Assembly (NCBI GenBank): GCA_017428115.1
Contig: JAFRRK010000089.1
Coordinates: forward strand, 1 to 32,780
Source: Bacteroidales bacterium
GTDB lineage: Bacteria; Bacteroidota; Bacteroidia; Bacteroidales; P3
Length of the DNA: 32,780 bases
Direction of reading: 5' to 3'
The notes beneath the pieces are model-generated. The model worked only from the letters and a program-made list of their open reading frames with translations. It made no database searches and had not been told where the DNA came from. The position numbers and the translations under genes were made by a program. Positions 22,799-27,948 of this stretch are shown piece by piece (the stretch's first letter is position 1; each line of letters begins with the position of its first letter).

Positions 22799-23299
22799 TC
22801 AATTCAAGTGTGCGTTTTCTAGCTCTTGCTGTATCAGTTTGTCTGCACGCTGGCGGTCACTCAGTTCCGACTTCATCAACTTCTCGGCTATGTCAATCGA
22901 CAGTGAGGCAATCTGATTCTTCAGTTCGTGCATGGCCTTCAACTTTTCGTAGTTGATGTTCTCGCGGGCATTCTCCACAATGCGGTCGGCCTCCTCGGTG
23001 GCCTTCAAACGGGCATCTTCCACAATCTTTTCACTGGTCAGGCGTGCGTTGCGCAGCATCTCGTCGCGCTCCGCCTTTGCCTCTTTCAGCAGGTCTTCGT
23101 TGTGCGCCACCAGCTGTTTCATCTCCTCGCGTGCCTTCTCGGCAGCGTTCAACGAGTCGGCTATGGCTTTCTCACGATTTTTCAGCGCCTTCAGCAGCAT
23201 GGGCCATCCCCATTTGCCGAGAATGAACACTAGGACGCCAAACGATACCAGCATCCATACGAATGTACCCAGTCCAGGATTAATTAACGGATTATTCAT
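22799..23299 (-). CDS. atpF: ATP synthase F0 subunit b
   Basis: The 166-residue peripheral-stalk subunit. A single N-terminal membrane segment (about residues 9-30, GTFVWMLVSFGVLVFILGKW) is followed by a long charged amphipathic helix rich in Lys, Glu and Ala, the dimeric stalk. The 105-bp gap to atpH contains AATTCTC-type repeat sequence, so it is not tightly packed. Confidence 0.93.
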   Translation of the reverse strand: MNNPLINPGLGTFVWMLVSFGVLVFILGKWGWPMLLKALKNREKAIADSLNAAEKAREEMKQLVAHNEDLLKEAKAERDEMLRNARLTSEKIVEDARLKATEEADRIVENARENINYEKLKAMHELKNQIASLSIDIAEKLMKSELSDRQRADKLIQQELENAHLN

Positions 23300-23350
23300 C
23301 TATTATTGTCTGTTAGTTGTTTCAGTGTGATTTGTTAGCTGATAACAGGA

Positions 23351-23373
23351 TGTTGGCGCCAATCGCGCCAACA
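23351..23373 (-). promoter_or_regulatory. Intercistronic hairpin between atpE and atpF
   Basis: TGTTGGCGC (23351-23359) is an exact reverse complement of GCGCCAACA (23365-23373) around a 5-base loop. No T-run follows on the - strand. A GC-rich hairpin just after the c-subunit gene may protect its mRNA 3' end or reduce read-through, giving more c subunit than b. This is inference. Confidence 0.5.
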
Positions 23374-23395
23374 CCCTATTCTTTCATTGGAGGTC

Positions 23396-23650
23396 TTACT
23401 TGAGGACAACCAGCAAGCAGACAACCACTGCGAAGAAGGCAACACCTTCAACCAGGGCGGCGGCGATAATCATGGTCGAACGGATGTAGCCACCAGCTTC
23501 AGGCTGGCGGGCCATGCCTTCCATGGCGCCCTGACCAATCTTACCAATGCCCAGACCTGCACCAATAGTGGCAAGGCCGGCTCCAACGGCTGCACCGAAA
23601 TAGCCCCAGGCCATCTGTGCGGCAGCTTGTAACAAAATGAGTAATGACAT
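23396..23650 (-). CDS. atpE: ATP synthase F0 subunit c
   Basis: The 84-residue rotor-ring subunit has two membrane helices joined by the conserved polar loop ARQPEA. Helix 1 is glycine-rich (AAVGAGLATIGAGLGIG). Helix 2 has the ion-binding Glu in AAALVEGVAFFAVVV. The residues that co-ordinate Na+ in sodium-type rings (the helix-1 Gln and the Ser/Thr after the Glu) are not present at matching positions, so proton coupling is likelier. It is the first gene of the cluster; no atpB precedes it. Confidence 0.94.
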   Translation of the reverse strand: MSLLILLQAAAQMAWGYFGAAVGAGLATIGAGLGIGKIGQGAMEGMARQPEAGGYIRSTMIIAAALVEGVAFFAVVVCLLVVLK

Positions 23651-23747
23651 AGTTGTGTTTTTTATGTTTATAAATATGTGTATTACCTTGTTTTGTAGTA
23701 ATCTAAGCGCACATTCTCCCCCTCTATAACGTTCTCAAATGAGGAAA

Positions 23748-23778
23748 CAAAAGTAGACATTTTTTTTTATCTACACAA
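23748..23778 (-). promoter_or_regulatory. Promoter of the atpEFHAG cluster
   Basis: On the - strand TTG (complement of 23776-23778), a 20-bp spacer and TACTTTTG (complement of 23748-23755) fit the Bacteroidota consensus. It lies about 98 bp before the atpE ATG and supports transcription starting at atpE rather than from an upstream atpB. Confidence 0.7.
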
Positions 23779-23973
23779 GTTTTTAACACTTAAAAACCAA
23801 AAAAAAATTTTAACACTCTAGGTATCAACCCCTTTATTTTTGCCCTATATGCTGTCTGTCGCTGCCCGATTATCGTCAAGCCCTTTTTTGCTCTCTTTTT
23901 GGCAGTACCGCTGTCCTAGTTTCTCTCCTTACGCTGTTGAAAGACAATCATATTATAGAGGACTTCTATAAAA

Positions 23974-24059
23974 TGCCTCGGAGAGGCAAACTCTCAATAT
24001 CCCTCACTTATAGCGTCGGGTATATCAGGCGAATGCATATCAGCGAGCCGAAGGTACGC
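23974..24059 (+). repeat. Decayed third core of the three-hairpin element
   Basis: TGCCTC-GGA-GAGGCA (23974-23988) and GCGAGCC-GAA-GGTACGC (24043-24059) are stems closed by G-purine-A triloops, as in the two intact copies. Between them CTCAATATCCCTCAC resembles CTCAATAACCCCACAC of the 25455 copy. Terminal inverted repeats are not recognisable, so this is an old or truncated copy. Confidence 0.45.
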
Positions 24060-24107
24060 GTTCTCAAAAAACATATTAATAGAACTCATCTATTCTATAT
24101 AGTGTTG

Positions 24108-24278
24108 GCTCTTATGCAATATATGACTGTTTTTTCAACAGCCTCGAAGAGGCTGAATATTAATAACACCGTACAAGCGAAGCGCAGTGCGGTGGCAAGA
24201 GATACTCTCTATCAGCGTCTCGGAGAGACGCGACATTAAGAATGTTTGATAAAAATCAGTCATTTGTTGTATTAGAGC
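24108..24278 (+). mobile_element. 171-bp three-hairpin element with terminal inverted repeats, copy 1
   Basis: The ends are imperfect inverted repeats of about 28 bp (GCTCTTATGC... at the left, reverse complement GCTCTAATAC... at the right), each with a GACTG-TTTTT inner part. Inside are hairpin 1 (24139-24155, CAGCCTC-GAA-GAGGCTG), hairpin 2 (24167-24174 with 24187-24194) and hairpin 3 (24215-24231, GCGTCTC-GGA-GAGACGC). The 93-bp core matches the copy at 25455-25624 in length and layout. There is no transposase, so it would be non-autonomous. Confidence 0.7.
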
Positions 24279-24321
24279 GATTGTGTTTTTTAGGACCTCT
24301 CCGGGTGTATGAAAAAAACTA

Positions 24322-24347
24322 AAGGAGACACTTTCTGGTGTCTCCTT
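24322..24347 (-). terminator. Terminator of tRNA-Cys
   Basis: AAGGAGACAC (24322-24331) pairs perfectly with GTGTCTCCTT (24338-24347) over 10 bp with a 6-base loop. On the - strand it is followed by TAGTTTTTTTC. It starts 4 bases past the CCA end of the tRNA. Confidence 0.85.
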
Positions 24348-24350
24348 CTT

Positions 24351-24424
24351 TGGAGGTCGCTTCCGGATTTGAACCGGAGTAGCAGGTTTTGCAGACCTGT
24401 GCCTAGCCCCTCGGCCAAACGACC
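24351..24424 (-). tRNA. tRNA-Cys (anticodon GCA)
   Basis: The - strand folds as a tRNA. The acceptor stem is GGTCGTT paired with AGCGACC, the discriminator base is U (as expected for tRNA-Cys) and CCA is encoded. The anticodon stem CAGGT/ACCTG closes the loop CTGCAAA with anticodon GCA (complement of 24390-24392). The T arm is TCCGG-TTCAAAT-CCGGA. It has its own promoter and terminator and stands alone. Confidence 0.95.
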
Positions 24425-24446
24425 CTTTTCGCTCTAAAAGCGGTTG

Positions 24447-24477
24447 CAAAAGTACAAACATTTTCCCAATTGACAAA
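24447..24477 (-). promoter_or_regulatory. Promoter of tRNA-Cys
   Basis: On the - strand TTTG (complement of 24474-24477), a 19-bp spacer and TACTTTTG (complement of 24447-24454) match the Bacteroidota consensus exactly, 22 bp before the first tRNA base. Confidence 0.8.
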
Positions 24478-24611
24478 ATATTTTTTTATATTTTATCTTG
24501 AGTGGTTGTGTATGAGTGTTTTATTTTTCTGTCAATAATACAGGTGGAGGTGCTTTTCAAACTACTTAAATGTGCTGTCTTTGCATTTTTTGACGACTGA
24601 CAGGCGACCCT

Positions 24612-25421
24612 TCATCGTTTCAGGTACTTAATCTCCTTTGGGTCAATAAGTCCGTATTGCATAGCTTTAGCTATGCGCGCACCCGATTTGTTCACTATGT
24701 CTAGCTTGCGCGATAGTTCTTTCTGTCTCTCTTGTATGCTTTTGTCGGTTTCGCACAGGTTGCTGGCTATCTCCGAGGCTGTGCACCCCGCCGCTTCCAG
24801 CAGTAACAACCGTCGTTCGGTATCGTTGAGAACCACATTGCATTTTTGGTCTGCCATCCGTTTCACATATAGTTCGGCGGCCTCTTTCAGGGTCAGCATC
24901 ACGGGATAGTTAAAATAATATCGCTCGCCGCGTTCGATTGATTCAATGGCACGCAACACATTCTCTACCGAGAACCCACCGGCCGCATTCTTGCTCACAA
25001 ATGCCTGCACTCCGTGTTCGAGCGATTCAAACAGCACACGGGCTATCTCCATCATCCTGTCTTGGCGGTCCGCCTCGTCGGGCAGCGGATTGTCAAAACG
25101 GCCTGAGAATAGGGCTATCTTTATCTCGGGGTATTTCTTGTGCACACGCTCGGCGATGAAGATGCCTCCTGTTGGTTCGCCTTGAAACTCGATGTCCAGC
25201 AACAGATAGTCGGGCATCTCGTGTTCTGCCGGGCTGTCCAGTGCTGCCATCAGCTGTGCCCCATTGGCAAAGGTGTCCAGCACCACCACCGTGCGGTAGT
25301 CCACCTCTCCGTCGTCGTTCATCCCACAGGCTACGCGGTGGGGCTGTCCGTTCAGTTCTAGTTTGAGCGCCTTCCGAATAATTGGCTCGTCGTCCACAAT
25401 CATTATCTTGATTGGTTCCAT
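24612..25421 (-). CDS. Response regulator with LuxR/NarL-like C-terminal region
   Basis: The 269-residue protein starts with a receiver domain: acidic pair Asp10-Asp11 (IMIVDDEP), phospho-acceptor Asp76 (YLLLDIEF), Ser106 (ALFSGR) and Lys144 (AFVSKNA). The receiver is enlarged by an insertion after residue 24 (NGQPHRVACGMNDDGEVDYR). The C-terminal part (LNDTERRLLLLEAAGCTASEIASNLCETDKSIQERQKEL) follows the LuxR/NarL helix-turn-helix pattern, with GCTASEIASNL for the turn. It probably binds DNA and answers to the histidine kinase at 25798-27948, which lies upstream on the same strand but is separated by 376 bp of repeats. Confidence 0.87.
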   Translation of the reverse strand: MEPIKIMIVDDEPIIRKALKLELNGQPHRVACGMNDDGEVDYRTVVVLDTFANGAQLMAALDSPAEHEMPDYLLLDIEFQGEPTGGIFIAERVHKKYPEIKIALFSGRFDNPLPDEADRQDRMMEIARVLFESLEHGVQAFVSKNAAGGFSVENVLRAIESIERGERYYFNYPVMLTLKEAAELYVKRMADQKCNVVLNDTERRLLLLEAAGCTASEIASNLCETDKSIQERQKELSRKLDIVNKSGARIAKAMQYGLIDPKEIKYLKR

Positions 25422-25454
25422 TGTTAAGTTGAATGTTTAAAAGGTTTTGAGTTG

Positions 25455-25624
25455 GCTCTATTTTGATAAAAGACTGATTTTTTACAGCCTCGAAGAGGCT
25501 GAATCTCAATAACCCCACACAAGGAACGTAGTGTGGGGGCAATGAAACCCCTACTATTCTGCGTCTCGAAGAGACGCGACATTGGGACATGTTGGCAAAA
25601 ATCAGTCATACTTTATACTAGAGC
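25455..25624 (+). mobile_element. 170-bp three-hairpin element with terminal inverted repeats, copy 2
   Basis: Its ends are inverted repeats: GCTCT (25455-25459) with AGAGC (25620-25624), and a perfect inner 11 bp, GACTGATTTTT (25472-25482) with AAAAATCAGTC (25597-25607). Hairpin 1 is CAGCCTC-GAA-GAGGCTG (25485-25501), hairpin 2 is CCCCACAC (25513-25520) with GTGTGGGG (25531-25538), and hairpin 3 is GCGTCTC-GAA-GAGACGC (25561-25577). The core is 93 bp, equal to the 24108 copy. Hairpin 2 differs from that copy at several positions but keeps full pairing. Confidence 0.75.
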
Positions 25625-25660
25625 GTTTGTGTTTAAATGGTGCGGCACATTATATTTCTT

Positions 25661-25766
25661 GTGGGTTCTATTAATTGCCTGCAATTATTAAAGTCTTAAA
25701 TTCTTATTAGATTAGATTCAAAGTGTGAAATATACATTTTCTCAAATTCTTGATAAATAGAAAACT
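25661..25766 (+). repeat. Dispersed ~100-bp repeat, copy B
   Basis: Begins GTGGGTTCTATTAATTGC and contains AATTCTTATT, GATTCAAAGTGTG and CTCAAATTCTTGATA, in the same order as copy A at 19194-19295. It starts 36 bp beyond the end of the three-hairpin element. It has no ORF. Confidence 0.75.
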
Positions 25767-25797
25767 CTTTCTATAACTGGGGGTTAACTTCTCCATC

Positions 25798-27948
25798 CTA
25801 CGGCTTTGGGTCGTCGTTGTCGCTTCCGGCCAGCAGGCAGTGGAATGTGCTCCCCTTGCCCGGCTGGCTTTCTGCCCAAATGCGGCAGCCGCGTGTCGTG
25901 TTGTCGTCGTGCCGTTTAATAATGTATTTGCATAGTATCAGACCAAAGCCTGTCCCATGGGTCGCTGAGGGGTCGTTGTTGGGTCGCACTTTCTTGTCTG
26001 CACGGAAGAGGTTCTCCAGCGTCTCCTCGTCCATGCCGCTGCCGGTGTCTGCCACCTCTATATGCACAAAACGCTTGTCCGCCGCGTATACCTCCGCGTT
26101 TATGGTCACTTTCCCTTGCTGGGTGTGCTGCAGGGCGTTGTTCACCAAATTGCGCAGCATGATTTCTGTCAACTGCCTGTCGCCATCGATTTTCAGTGTT
26201 GTGGGGTGGAAAATGAGGTCTACGTCATGCTCTAGCCTTACACATGAGGCGGCCACACTCTCAAACACCTCTTCCAAAGCAAACACCGATGGCTGGAACT
26301 GCATCCCGCTGGGGATGGACAGGTTGGTCCAGCTCTTTATGTTGGCAAAGGTGCGCAGCAGCTGGTCCAGCACCTCCTGCCGCATTTCGTTGCTCAGCTG
26401 CTTGTTGGTGAGGTAGGTGAGGAAAGGGTTGATGTCGTGCCTCAGCACCGACAGGCAGGTCTCCACATTGGCTATACGCTCTATGCTCTGTCGGCGGGCT
26501 CGTTGTAGGGCTGCTTTCTCGTTTCTCAACACTTTCGAACGGCGGTTCAACAACACCACCATCGTTGCCAGCAGCAGCAGAAACACCGTGCCCACGATGA
26601 TGGCCACCACGTAATAGTGGTTGCGGTTTTCTGACTGTTGGAGGCGGTCTTGAAGCATGGCGTCTGCGCTTTCGTTCTGGTGGATAAAGGTCAGCAGCTC
26701 CATCTCGCGGGCATACCATTGGCGGTTCACTTCCTCCGAGGGGGAATAGCCCATGCGTATCAGGCCATCGTATAGCATCGCCTCAAACTTCGGCGCCATG
26801 CCGTCGTGCCAACTGCTGTCGCACAAGGCTCGGGTATAGTAGCTGTATGCCAGGTCGTAGTAGCCCTCGCGCAGACAGTATTCGGCAGCTGCCACCACGG
26901 CACCCAGATGCTGGTAGGGGTCGCTGGTCTGAAAGAAGAGGTCCGTCGACACATCAAACATGTCCAGCCCGTAATCGCCCGTCGCCACTATCGAGTCGTG
27001 CGGATATAGCCTGTCGCCCAATCGGCTTAGCTCGGCAATGCGTGCCGCACACAGCCGTTGATAGCTGTCCGGGCGTATGTTGGTGTCGGCTACGATAAAC
27101 GCCTGTAGCTGGAACACGTTGGCCAAGTGGTAGATGCTATGCTGGTTAGGCCGGCTCATTATCTTCAGGTTGTCTGCCAGATACTGATAGGCTTTGCCAA
27201 GCAGTTTCGCATCGCTTCCTGTGGCCGAGGCCAAGCGGTAGTAGCTGTGCGCCAATGCGTAGTTGAGCGACATATCTTCCGCATAGTCGCACTTTAGCCC
27301 CGGACGGGCCTCCTCTACCTCCTTCAACAGGTCTGCCATGTTCTTCTGCGTGCTGGCATTGAGCAGTGTGCCCGACGACGATGCCACCGCGCTGTTGCGG
27401 TAGTGGTAGTTCAGTGTCAGCGACGTGATATAGTATTCCATCTGCGCATAGGCATAGAGATAGTTGTCGCTCTTCCTGCGCAGAAGGGCCGAGCGGTCGA
27501 TATCGTATAGCAGCTGATACGACTCTGCTATGCGGCAGCTCCGTTGCAGCAGGCGTATCTCCATCAGCTGTGCCACCAACCGCTCCACCTCGCTGTTGCG
27601 GCTTTGGTACGCGTGCCTGCCATGGGGTGGCGCTGTGGCCGCAAGCACACTGTCTATATATGCCGCTGCCGAGTCGTGCTCCGCCAGCATGTAGTAGCCG
27701 AATGCCAGATTGTTGTATGCCCGCAGCCGTCCGTCATGGTAGTTGGGCAACGAGTCGCGCACCATTGCCAGTGCGGCGTAGGCCTCCGCTATCGAACGGT
27801 ACGAGTCTTGGTAGCGGTTGATAAACGAGGCCTTGTTGTGGCTGTCCACACCACCCCGCAGCCGCAGGTTCACCCCGCTGTACCGTGCCTGCTGCCGGCA
27901 TCCCGTCAGCAGCAGCACGACCATGAATAATATGTTGAGGCGTCTCAT
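25798..27948 (-). CDS. Lipoprotein-type sensor histidine kinase with TPR-like periplasmic region
   Basis: The 716-residue protein begins MRRLNILFMVVLLLTGC, a lipoprotein signal with Cys17. Residues about 18-440 are helical, with repeated Tyr/Ala-rich pairs as in TPR arrays, and should lie in the periplasm. One membrane helix spans about 445-467 (VVAIIVGTVFLLLLATMVVLL), followed by a basic coiled coil. The kinase part has His504 in VLRHDINPF (HisKA-like), the N box LRNLVNNALQH (about 598-608), G1 DTGSGM (634-639) and G2 GTGFGL (665-670). The layout resembles Bacteroidota sensor kinases with DUF5112/DUF5113-like sensor domains; that assignment is from memory and unchecked. Its partner is probably the regulator at 24612-25421. 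Signal unknown. Confidence 0.85.
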   Translation of the reverse strand: MRRLNILFMVVLLLTGCRQQARYSGVNLRLRGGVDSHNKASFINRYQDSYRSIAEAYAALAMVRDSLPNYHDGRLRAYNNLAFGYYMLAEHDSAAAYIDSVLAATAPPHGRHAYQSRNSEVERLVAQLMEIRLLQRSCRIAESYQLLYDIDRSALLRRKSDNYLYAYAQMEYYITSLTLNYHYRNSAVASSSGTLLNASTQKNMADLLKEVEEARPGLKCDYAEDMSLNYALAHSYYRLASATGSDAKLLGKAYQYLADNLKIMSRPNQHSIYHLANVFQLQAFIVADTNIRPDSYQRLCAARIAELSRLGDRLYPHDSIVATGDYGLDMFDVSTDLFFQTSDPYQHLGAVVAAAEYCLREGYYDLAYSYYTRALCDSSWHDGMAPKFEAMLYDGLIRMGYSPSEEVNRQWYAREMELLTFIHQNESADAMLQDRLQQSENRNHYYVVAIIVGTVFLLLLATMVVLLNRRSKVLRNEKAALQRARRQSIERIANVETCLSVLRHDINPFLTYLTNKQLSNEMRQEVLDQLLRTFANIKSWTNLSIPSGMQFQPSVFALEEVFESVAASCVRLEHDVDLIFHPTTLKIDGDRQLTEIMLRNLVNNALQHTQQGKVTINAEVYAADKRFVHIEVADTGSGMDEETLENLFRADKKVRPNNDPSATHGTGFGLILCKYIIKRHDDNTTRGCRIWAESQPGKGSTFHCLLAGSDNDDPKP

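Follow-up and report, generated by a model that had tools for sequence, protein, structure and literature searches.

Several described systems join structured DNA repeats to transposases of the Y1 (HUH) type. IS200/IS605 elements encode a Y1 enzyme and carry hairpins at their ends, which are not inverted copies of each other. REP repeats, known as BIMEs, REPINs and REPtrons together with TnpA_REP (RAYT), are single hairpins of 21-65 nt with a GTAG or GTGG foot; they bracket a Y1 gene and are scattered, mostly between genes, as single copies and inverted pairs. RAYT enzymes belong to class 2 and carry the motif Y---NP. In TIRYT, a Y1 gene is flanked by long terminal inverted repeats of which the genome has further copies (PMC3733652), and the consulted part of a later classification relates this group to subclass 2.1 (PMC6006769). 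The same classification named in 2018 TnpA_Y1 subclass 1.2, an IS200-like group without IS properties, made up of Bacteroidetes enzymes of about 150 aa with Y---Q--HH and DH[IV]H motifs and low copy number; the part of the text consulted lists no REP for the group, which 'generally' lacks the terminal structures typical of IS200 (PMC6006769).

This article describes a family of repeats from a Bacteroidales genome that shares features with these systems and differs from them. The repeats are read here, with a probability of roughly 0.78, as two-layer non-autonomous transposons, in which DDE transposon ends form the outside and a core, most likely recognized as single-stranded DNA by a Y1 enzyme, the inside. 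Like MITEs of the IS1595 family they have terminal repeats, 8-bp target duplications and a length below that of a transposase gene; unlike a plain IS1595-family MITE, they enclose a foreign, conserved core in which three hairpins follow in fixed order over about 100 nt, and which is common to IS5-type elements. Like REP, the core brackets Y1 genes in related genomes and occurs as single copies and inverted pairs, mostly in intergenic positions. It differs from the single REP hairpin in its size and three-hairpin order, and in having GACAT (49 of 58 aligned cores) in place of the GTAG/GTGG foot, CTAC being present in some core copies of two genomes (G398 and G178); the enzymes it brackets are of the Y---Q--HH type and not Y---NP. 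The Y1 enzyme (best match NF033573) and the end hairpins are as in IS200/IS605, whereas the two ends are here inverted copies, the second core lying inverted after the stop codon. As in TIRYT, the inverted repeats on either side of the Y1 gene have further copies in the genome, while the consulted part of the TIRYT description mentions no three-hairpin architecture (PMC3733652). The likeness to TnpA_Y1 subclass 1.2 extends to both motifs, protein length, host phylum and low copy number; in contrast to that subclass as described in the part consulted, an inverted three-hairpin pair brackets several of the genes and some enzymes have W-S instead of W-Q (PMC6006769). No description of a three-hairpin element was found in the literature searched, which was mostly non-subscription.

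The window, that is, the whole stretch of DNA analysed, is a contig of 32,780 nt. A sequence-only reading of it had described two repeats of about 170 bp with three hairpins. Both are present, with true ends one base further out on each side than had been proposed. When the sequence was re-read, the inverted terminal repeats of both copies and the 7-bp stems and G-purine-A triloops of hairpins 1 and 3 were as described, and the hairpin-2 arms also stand as given (CACCGTAC/GTGCGGTG in one copy and CCCCACAC/GTGTGGGG in the other). The view that no gene in the window explains the movement of the repeats agrees with the list of open reading frames, inspected by eye. A third related element with different ends, and an end fragment of the same family (family B), had been missed. 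The features are as follows.

23958..24090, + strand: third element, family B (IS5-type ends), decayed, 133 bp; core HMM E 0.01, and ends; flanks TATA / TATT
24099..24106, no strand: copy 1 left target-site duplication, ATAGTGTT; 7 of 8 bases match
24107..24279, + strand: copy 1 of family A, a putative MITE of 173 bp; blastn, terminal-repeat pattern, re-reading of the sequence
24107..24135, + strand: copy 1 left terminal inverted repeat; 20-22 of 29 bases identical to each of four IS1595-family ends
24139..24155, + strand: copy 1 hairpin 1, 7-bp stem, loop GAA; fold, covariation
24167..24194, + strand: copy 1 hairpin 2, 8-bp stem including its one T.G wobble pair, plus inner stem; fold, covariation
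24215..24231, + strand: copy 1 hairpin 3, 7-bp stem, loop GGA; fold, covariation
24251..24279, - strand: copy 1 right terminal inverted repeat; 25 of 29 bases identical to the left end of an intact IS1595-family element
24280..24287, no strand: copy 1 right target-site duplication, ATTGTGTT
25446..25453, no strand: copy 2 left target-site duplication, TTTGAGTT
25454..25625, + strand: copy 2 of family A, a putative MITE of 172 bp; blastn, terminal-repeat pattern
25454..25482, + strand: copy 2 left terminal inverted repeat; 25 of 29 bases identical to an IS1595-family right end
25485..25501, + strand: copy 2 hairpin 1, loop GAA; fold
25513..25538, + strand: copy 2 hairpin 2; fold
25561..25577, + strand: copy 2 hairpin 3, loop GAA; fold
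25597..25625, - strand: copy 2 right terminal inverted repeat; 20-24 of 29 bases identical to IS1595-family ends
25626..25633, no strand: copy 2 right target-site duplication, TTTGTGTT; 7 of 8 bases match
25661..25676, + strand: family B end fragment, GTGGGTTCTATTAATT

Folding of the two cores is not due to chance, as none of 200 shuffles folded as low in any case, for RNA or DNA and on either strand. Folded as RNA, the plus-strand cores gave z values of -5.9 (copy 1) and -3.9 (copy 2) and the minus-strand cores did nearly as well (-4.4 and -5.5); as DNA, the values were -5.9 and -6.1 for the plus strand and -5.6 and -5.6 for the minus strand. In the third element only hairpin 1 still folds (DNA fold z -0.4).

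The two copies belong to a high-copy family. Copy 2 gave 64 blastn matches in its own genome (2.78 Mb in 103 contigs, 80% complete) and the terminal-repeat pattern 53, with none for the reversed control; many contigs of this genome begin or end within a family A element. With at most one mismatch, the pattern is patchily distributed over 15 of 59 genomes of the same genus, five of which have more than 40 matches each. A search with the hairpin 3 pattern found at least 97 stretches in named genomes; all except one of the matches listed are titled Bacteroidales or Bacteroidetes, many of them ruminant-derived, and the lone Rokubacteria match (L064) looks like a chance hit. In loci of at least 5 kb, 39 of 40 family A copies lie outside open reading frames of 130 codons or more.

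Family A is delimited by terminal repeats of about 29 bp and 8-bp target duplications. The duplication is exact in 35 of the 61 complete elements in the loci fetched (a few nested end pairs being counted twice), for a chance expectation of about 0.004; those of the window copies match at seven of eight positions each and are not exact. Ends of the same kind delimit two elements of 1118 and 1119 bp in a genome of the same genus (G028), each enclosing a 353-aa transposase of the IS1595 family (NCBIfam NF033547, E 2.3e-54; PF12762, 1e-12), and further copies of this element were recognized by their ends in G021 and G027. The terminal repeats of the window copies are identical to four IS1595-family ends at 20-25 of 29 positions, and the commonest family A left end agrees with an IS1595-family end at 26 of 29. 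By eye, no clear 8-bp duplication was seen around the intact G028 copies. The window's own genome, 80% complete, gave no match to an IS1595 transposase, and a decayed left end of an IS1595-family element was recognized by eye on one of its contigs (C37). Family A elements are too short for a transposase gene. Their 8-bp duplications, and the terminal repeats that they have in common with the IS1595-family element, mark the window copies, as far as can be read from sequence, as MITEs of a DDE transposon of the IS1595 family, a double-stranded kind of element that the sequence-only reading had not foreseen. An IS1595-family transposase is presumed to have moved family A in trans as double-stranded DNA.

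Two other candidate partners of family A were rejected. ISL3 elements have GGCTCT-like ends and 8-bp duplications, and ISL3 genes are present in the genome; three of their end types were seen (GGGTTAA.., GGTTCATCC.. and GGTTCAGC..) and none resembles family A. ISL3-family transposases of three or more kinds occur in the window's genome, all at contig ends (C42, C68, C37, C70, C76 and C89; L051-L056). A 1049-bp piece of G021 bounded by terminal inverted repeats (L168) turned out to be a fragment of a MITE beside a PF01609 piece.

The core itself is distinct from the DDE ends and is also found between two other kinds of end. Among 18 complete elements of family B, which has the ends GGGGACTTCTATAAAT and GGTGGGTTCTATTTATT, 11 show an exact 4-bp duplication (chance expectation about 0.15). 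These ends are nearly identical, with one mismatch each by eye, to those of decayed IS5-family elements, whose pieces match NCBIfam IS5_4 (5.2e-18), PF05598 and PF01609. Family C has a third kind of end, TGATTATCCGCA..., with an exact 8-bp duplication in 3 of 12 complete elements when the boundary is set one base outward. After exclusion of redundant loci and of hits with E above 1e-3, 176 core hits were divided into 76 of type A, 24 of type B, 31 of type C and 45 with none of these ends. In two JAGAYN contigs (L067 and L130) family C-like elements form tandem pairs with common ends. The open reading frame at L206 was considered as a family B partner and rejected, its ends assigning it to another element. 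This other element, seen at L206:820-2110 and at the end of L158, has ATCCTGCAATTTGACCTAT-like ends and a transposase-like reading frame; an end of this kind also truncates a family A end on C43.

Conservation of the core was assessed in an alignment (A3) of 58 distinct cores, built from sequence only and selected partly by hand, near-identical cores and those with a hairpin 2 loop above 22 nt being left out. The prediction that other copies preserve the pairing of hairpin 2 was borne out, with 95.3% of cells paired over the structure as a whole versus 88.3% after shuffling; the inner stem of hairpin 2 is its weak part (13, 21 and 24 unpaired cells). Double changes occur at 12 of 25 pairs (shuffled mean 6.3), none of 500 shuffles reached any of the five covariation measures, and pairing falls to 28-55% when the partner is shifted by 1-3 columns. 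Of 149 copies, 136 have a GNA loop in hairpin 1, which the search pattern left unconstrained; the loops of hairpin 3 were partly fixed by the pattern. Two stretches outside the stems are also conserved, AATAAC before hairpin 2 (exact in 48 of 58 cores) and GACAT after hairpin 3 (exact in 49 of 58). At pair 6 of hairpin 2 the alignment has U.G in 36 cores, C-G in 16 and G-C in 6, and the pair is never broken.

Polymerase template switching can 'correct' imperfect palindromes, and the paired changes might in principle be mutational in this way, pairing being kept without selection. All three structures are short palindromes whose changes preserve pairing, as such a process would produce; it would also erase mismatches, yet 36 of 58 cores retain the U.G of hairpin 2 next to pairs that covary. 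Template switching also leaves unexplained both why one strand keeps G-N-A loops (136 of 149 for hairpin 1) and why the unpaired AATAAC and GACAT are conserved (48 and 49 of 58). This origin is considered very improbable.

A role as RNA was also weighed, the core being kept as a transcribed regulatory or stabilizing element and, beside a Y1 gene, as the 5' leader and 3' end of its mRNA. The persistent U.G at pair 6, in 36 of 58 cores and never broken, speaks for it, as does an excess of G.U over A.C in the other outer-stem pairs of A3, the inner stem being left aside (13 versus 4, p 0.049), and in a separate symmetric scoring over distinct stems (41 versus 25, p 0.064). Outside pair 6 this excess is a trend that weakly favours RNA, and the asymmetry fades within hairpin 2 alone (17 versus 15). 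Family A is antisense to both flanking reading frames in 16 of 29 cases, sense to both in 6 and mixed in 7 (loci of at least 5 kb), so that the flanking genes have no consistent orientation. Searches of Rfam returned only a tRNA in positions 23000-27000 of the window (E up to 5) and no core match at 11 loci (E up to 0.1), which rules out a known Rfam RNA as the identity of the core and also speaks against an RNA role. Inverted cores flanking a gene suit a transposition end better than a single transcript. Such a role is regarded as unlikely.

Evidence on the enzyme came from related genomes. In the covariance-model search proposed in the sequence-only reading, the model (R1) matched 66 of the 393 genomes searched in the order, including the window's own and one genus mate, and 50 of 206 genera; E-values are rough, and both counts are lower bounds because only 10 candidates per genome were scored. 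Among 29 loci from this search (L230-L258), IS200-like Y1-type reading frames adjoin some of the cores, and PF01797 and core positions coincide in at least nine genomes (G161, G178, G190, G250, G275, G287, G342, G395 and G398). A PF01797 gene was found in 57 of 64 core-positive versus 50 of 80 core-negative genomes of the order (p 2.6e-4; groups unmatched for genome size). The Y1 unit consists of a core, a Y1 gene of about 150 aa and an inverted core; dispersed copies occur as inverted pairs and singles, and gene-less inverted pairs 5-15 nt apart were seen at L233, L235, L239 and L251.

The bracketing extends to loci that had been fetched for PF01797 alone: in the same genus (L277, L296, L297 and L302-L308) six of ten have cores on both sides, the exceptions being L277, L296, L303 and L307. 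Inspection covered 11 of the 23 PF01797 matches in the nine PF01797-bearing members of the genus. Across 44 Y1 loci, 34 (32 distinct) have a frame matching the HuH motif; the ten left out include L301, with an EHIH-type gene. In 10 of the 34 (L270, L289, L297, L298, L300, L302, L304, L305, L306 and L308) the inverted core starts between -2 and +8 nt from the stop codon, and all ten encode Y---Q--HH enzymes; five of the 44 (L289 and L298-L301) had been chosen for a known core, and seven of the ten stop-codon loci without such knowledge. The 30 top-scoring PF01797 loci (L259-L288) include 16 of the Y---Q--HH type, only L270 having an inverted core at the stop codon according to the genus-based model. 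The L289 protein, of 149 aa, carries DHIHI and YIRNQKEHH. With the IS200/IS605 model NF033573 (cut-off 55) the L289 reading frame scores 53.3 bits and the L299 protein 69.9, the RAYT model being weak for both (25.2 and 22.1; cut-off 80); at the position of the W-Q motif, read by eye, L298 has WQ, and L289 and L299 have WS. What follows the Y---Q--HH transposase at L296 (G398:C2:275372) is not the three-hairpin core but several single CCCCTACGGGG-type hairpins one after another; this enzyme group may also have such simpler ends.

Because inverted cores bracket Y1 genes in relatives, the core is most likely the single-stranded DNA end structure of a Y---Q--HH Y1 transposase of the TnpA_Y1 subclass 1.2 kind. 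That it would be recognized as single-stranded DNA is suggested by the G-N-A triloops kept on one strand, the covarying stems and the conserved AATAAC and GACAT; recognition of the folded core by a Y1 enzyme would explain the paired changes. The IS200/RAYT-type transposase gene that the sequence-only reading had suspected thus has its counterpart in relatives, where it is bracketed by cores; the 80% complete genome of the window itself yielded no such gene.

The distribution of end types indicates that the core changed its surroundings. On a core tree of 114 rows and 104 columns, poorly resolved, the end-type labels require 23 changes (minimum 4, shuffled mean 61), and the starred branches force at least 4 changes for type A; the core has therefore acquired different ends on more than one occasion, through capture or through recombination, and on this sequence evidence has been joined repeatedly to DDE ends of the IS1595, IS5 and third types. 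Copy 1 falls in a 17-row clade of type A near C cores; copy 2 belongs to a group of 46 rows that mixes A and B cores with Y1-bracketing and unlabelled ones. Since the copies thus belong to separate core lineages (on a tree of few columns), the 'compensatory changes' reported between them, which do keep pairing, are differences between lineages and not changes seen in situ.

Hairpin 2 takes extra hairpin modules inside its loop or just 5' of it (GTTGCGGAAGTCGAGAGC... and GAAAGTCCAGTGGACTTTC...; L042, L117, L121 and L134; L073, L080 and L116), as if it were a docking site for modules. In several copies of the window's genome an IS lies inside hairpin 1 or 3, directly after CTCGAAGA (the end of C36, L017; C58, L035; the right ends of C20, C43, C52 and C64, L028-L031), and this IS was also found once in other sequence, at TGTCGAAGA (C2, L156); the core hairpins may be a landing site for it.

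Common cores could also have arisen by recombination or gene conversion between co-resident elements and not by capture of a Y1 substrate. Types A and B are found together in the window's genome and whole modules are exchanged at hairpin 2, both of which fit such a process; it accounts for spread from MITE to MITE, but not for the inverted pair around Y1 genes, which also occurs outside the genus, and as a full explanation it is judged quite unlikely. Somewhat less doubtful, though still rather unlikely, is that the window copies are plain MITEs whose core is inert filler that an ancient Y1 element left behind and that now has no function. Their good IS1595-type ends, a Y1 gene not found in the window's genome and the loss of two hairpins in its family B copy are as expected for filler; the preservation of 95.3% of the pairing among 58 cores of many different genomes is not, nor would filler need to recur under at least two DDE end types.

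In the preferred two-layer reading, an IS1595-family transposase would act in trans on the terminal repeats of the outer layer as double-stranded DNA. The inner layer is homologous to the inverted, structured ends of a Y1 gene present in the same genus and in some other genomes of the order, and the Y---Q--HH enzyme of that gene would recognize the core as folded single-stranded DNA; the core would have been carried repeatedly by DDE transposon ends. The selection on structure and the Y1 link put forward in the sequence-only reading find support here, as a single-stranded structure tied to an IS200/RAYT-type gene. Counting against the two-layer reading are the lack of Y1_Tnp and IS1595 matches in the window's own genome, the four of ten genus loci without brackets and the 15 of 16 top-scoring Y---Q--HH loci that are bare. 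Both strands of the core fold well, the intact IS1595-family copies show by eye no 8-bp duplication of their own, and the excess of G.U over A.C leans, though weakly, towards RNA. No replication-strand bias was seen (23 of 40 family A copies lie on the G-richer strand), which movement as lagging-strand single-stranded DNA might leave.

A bolder version, tentative and held at less than even odds, treats the core as a module that is still active and can be exchanged. As a substrate of the Y---Q--HH TnpA it would go on changing vehicles, moving by single-strand HUH chemistry within its Y1 units and hitch-hiking on the unrelated DDE ends of the IS1595, IS5 and third types for double-strand transposition. 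If true, one element of 170 bp would have two ways of moving. The inverted three-hairpin pair at the stop codon would be a candidate substrate for the subclass 1.2 enzymes, which previously had none, and the presence of one structured module inside two unrelated DDE transposon families is an unusual instance of a change of vehicle. For the organism itself, the family accounts for a class of repeats at which the contigs of this genome break off.
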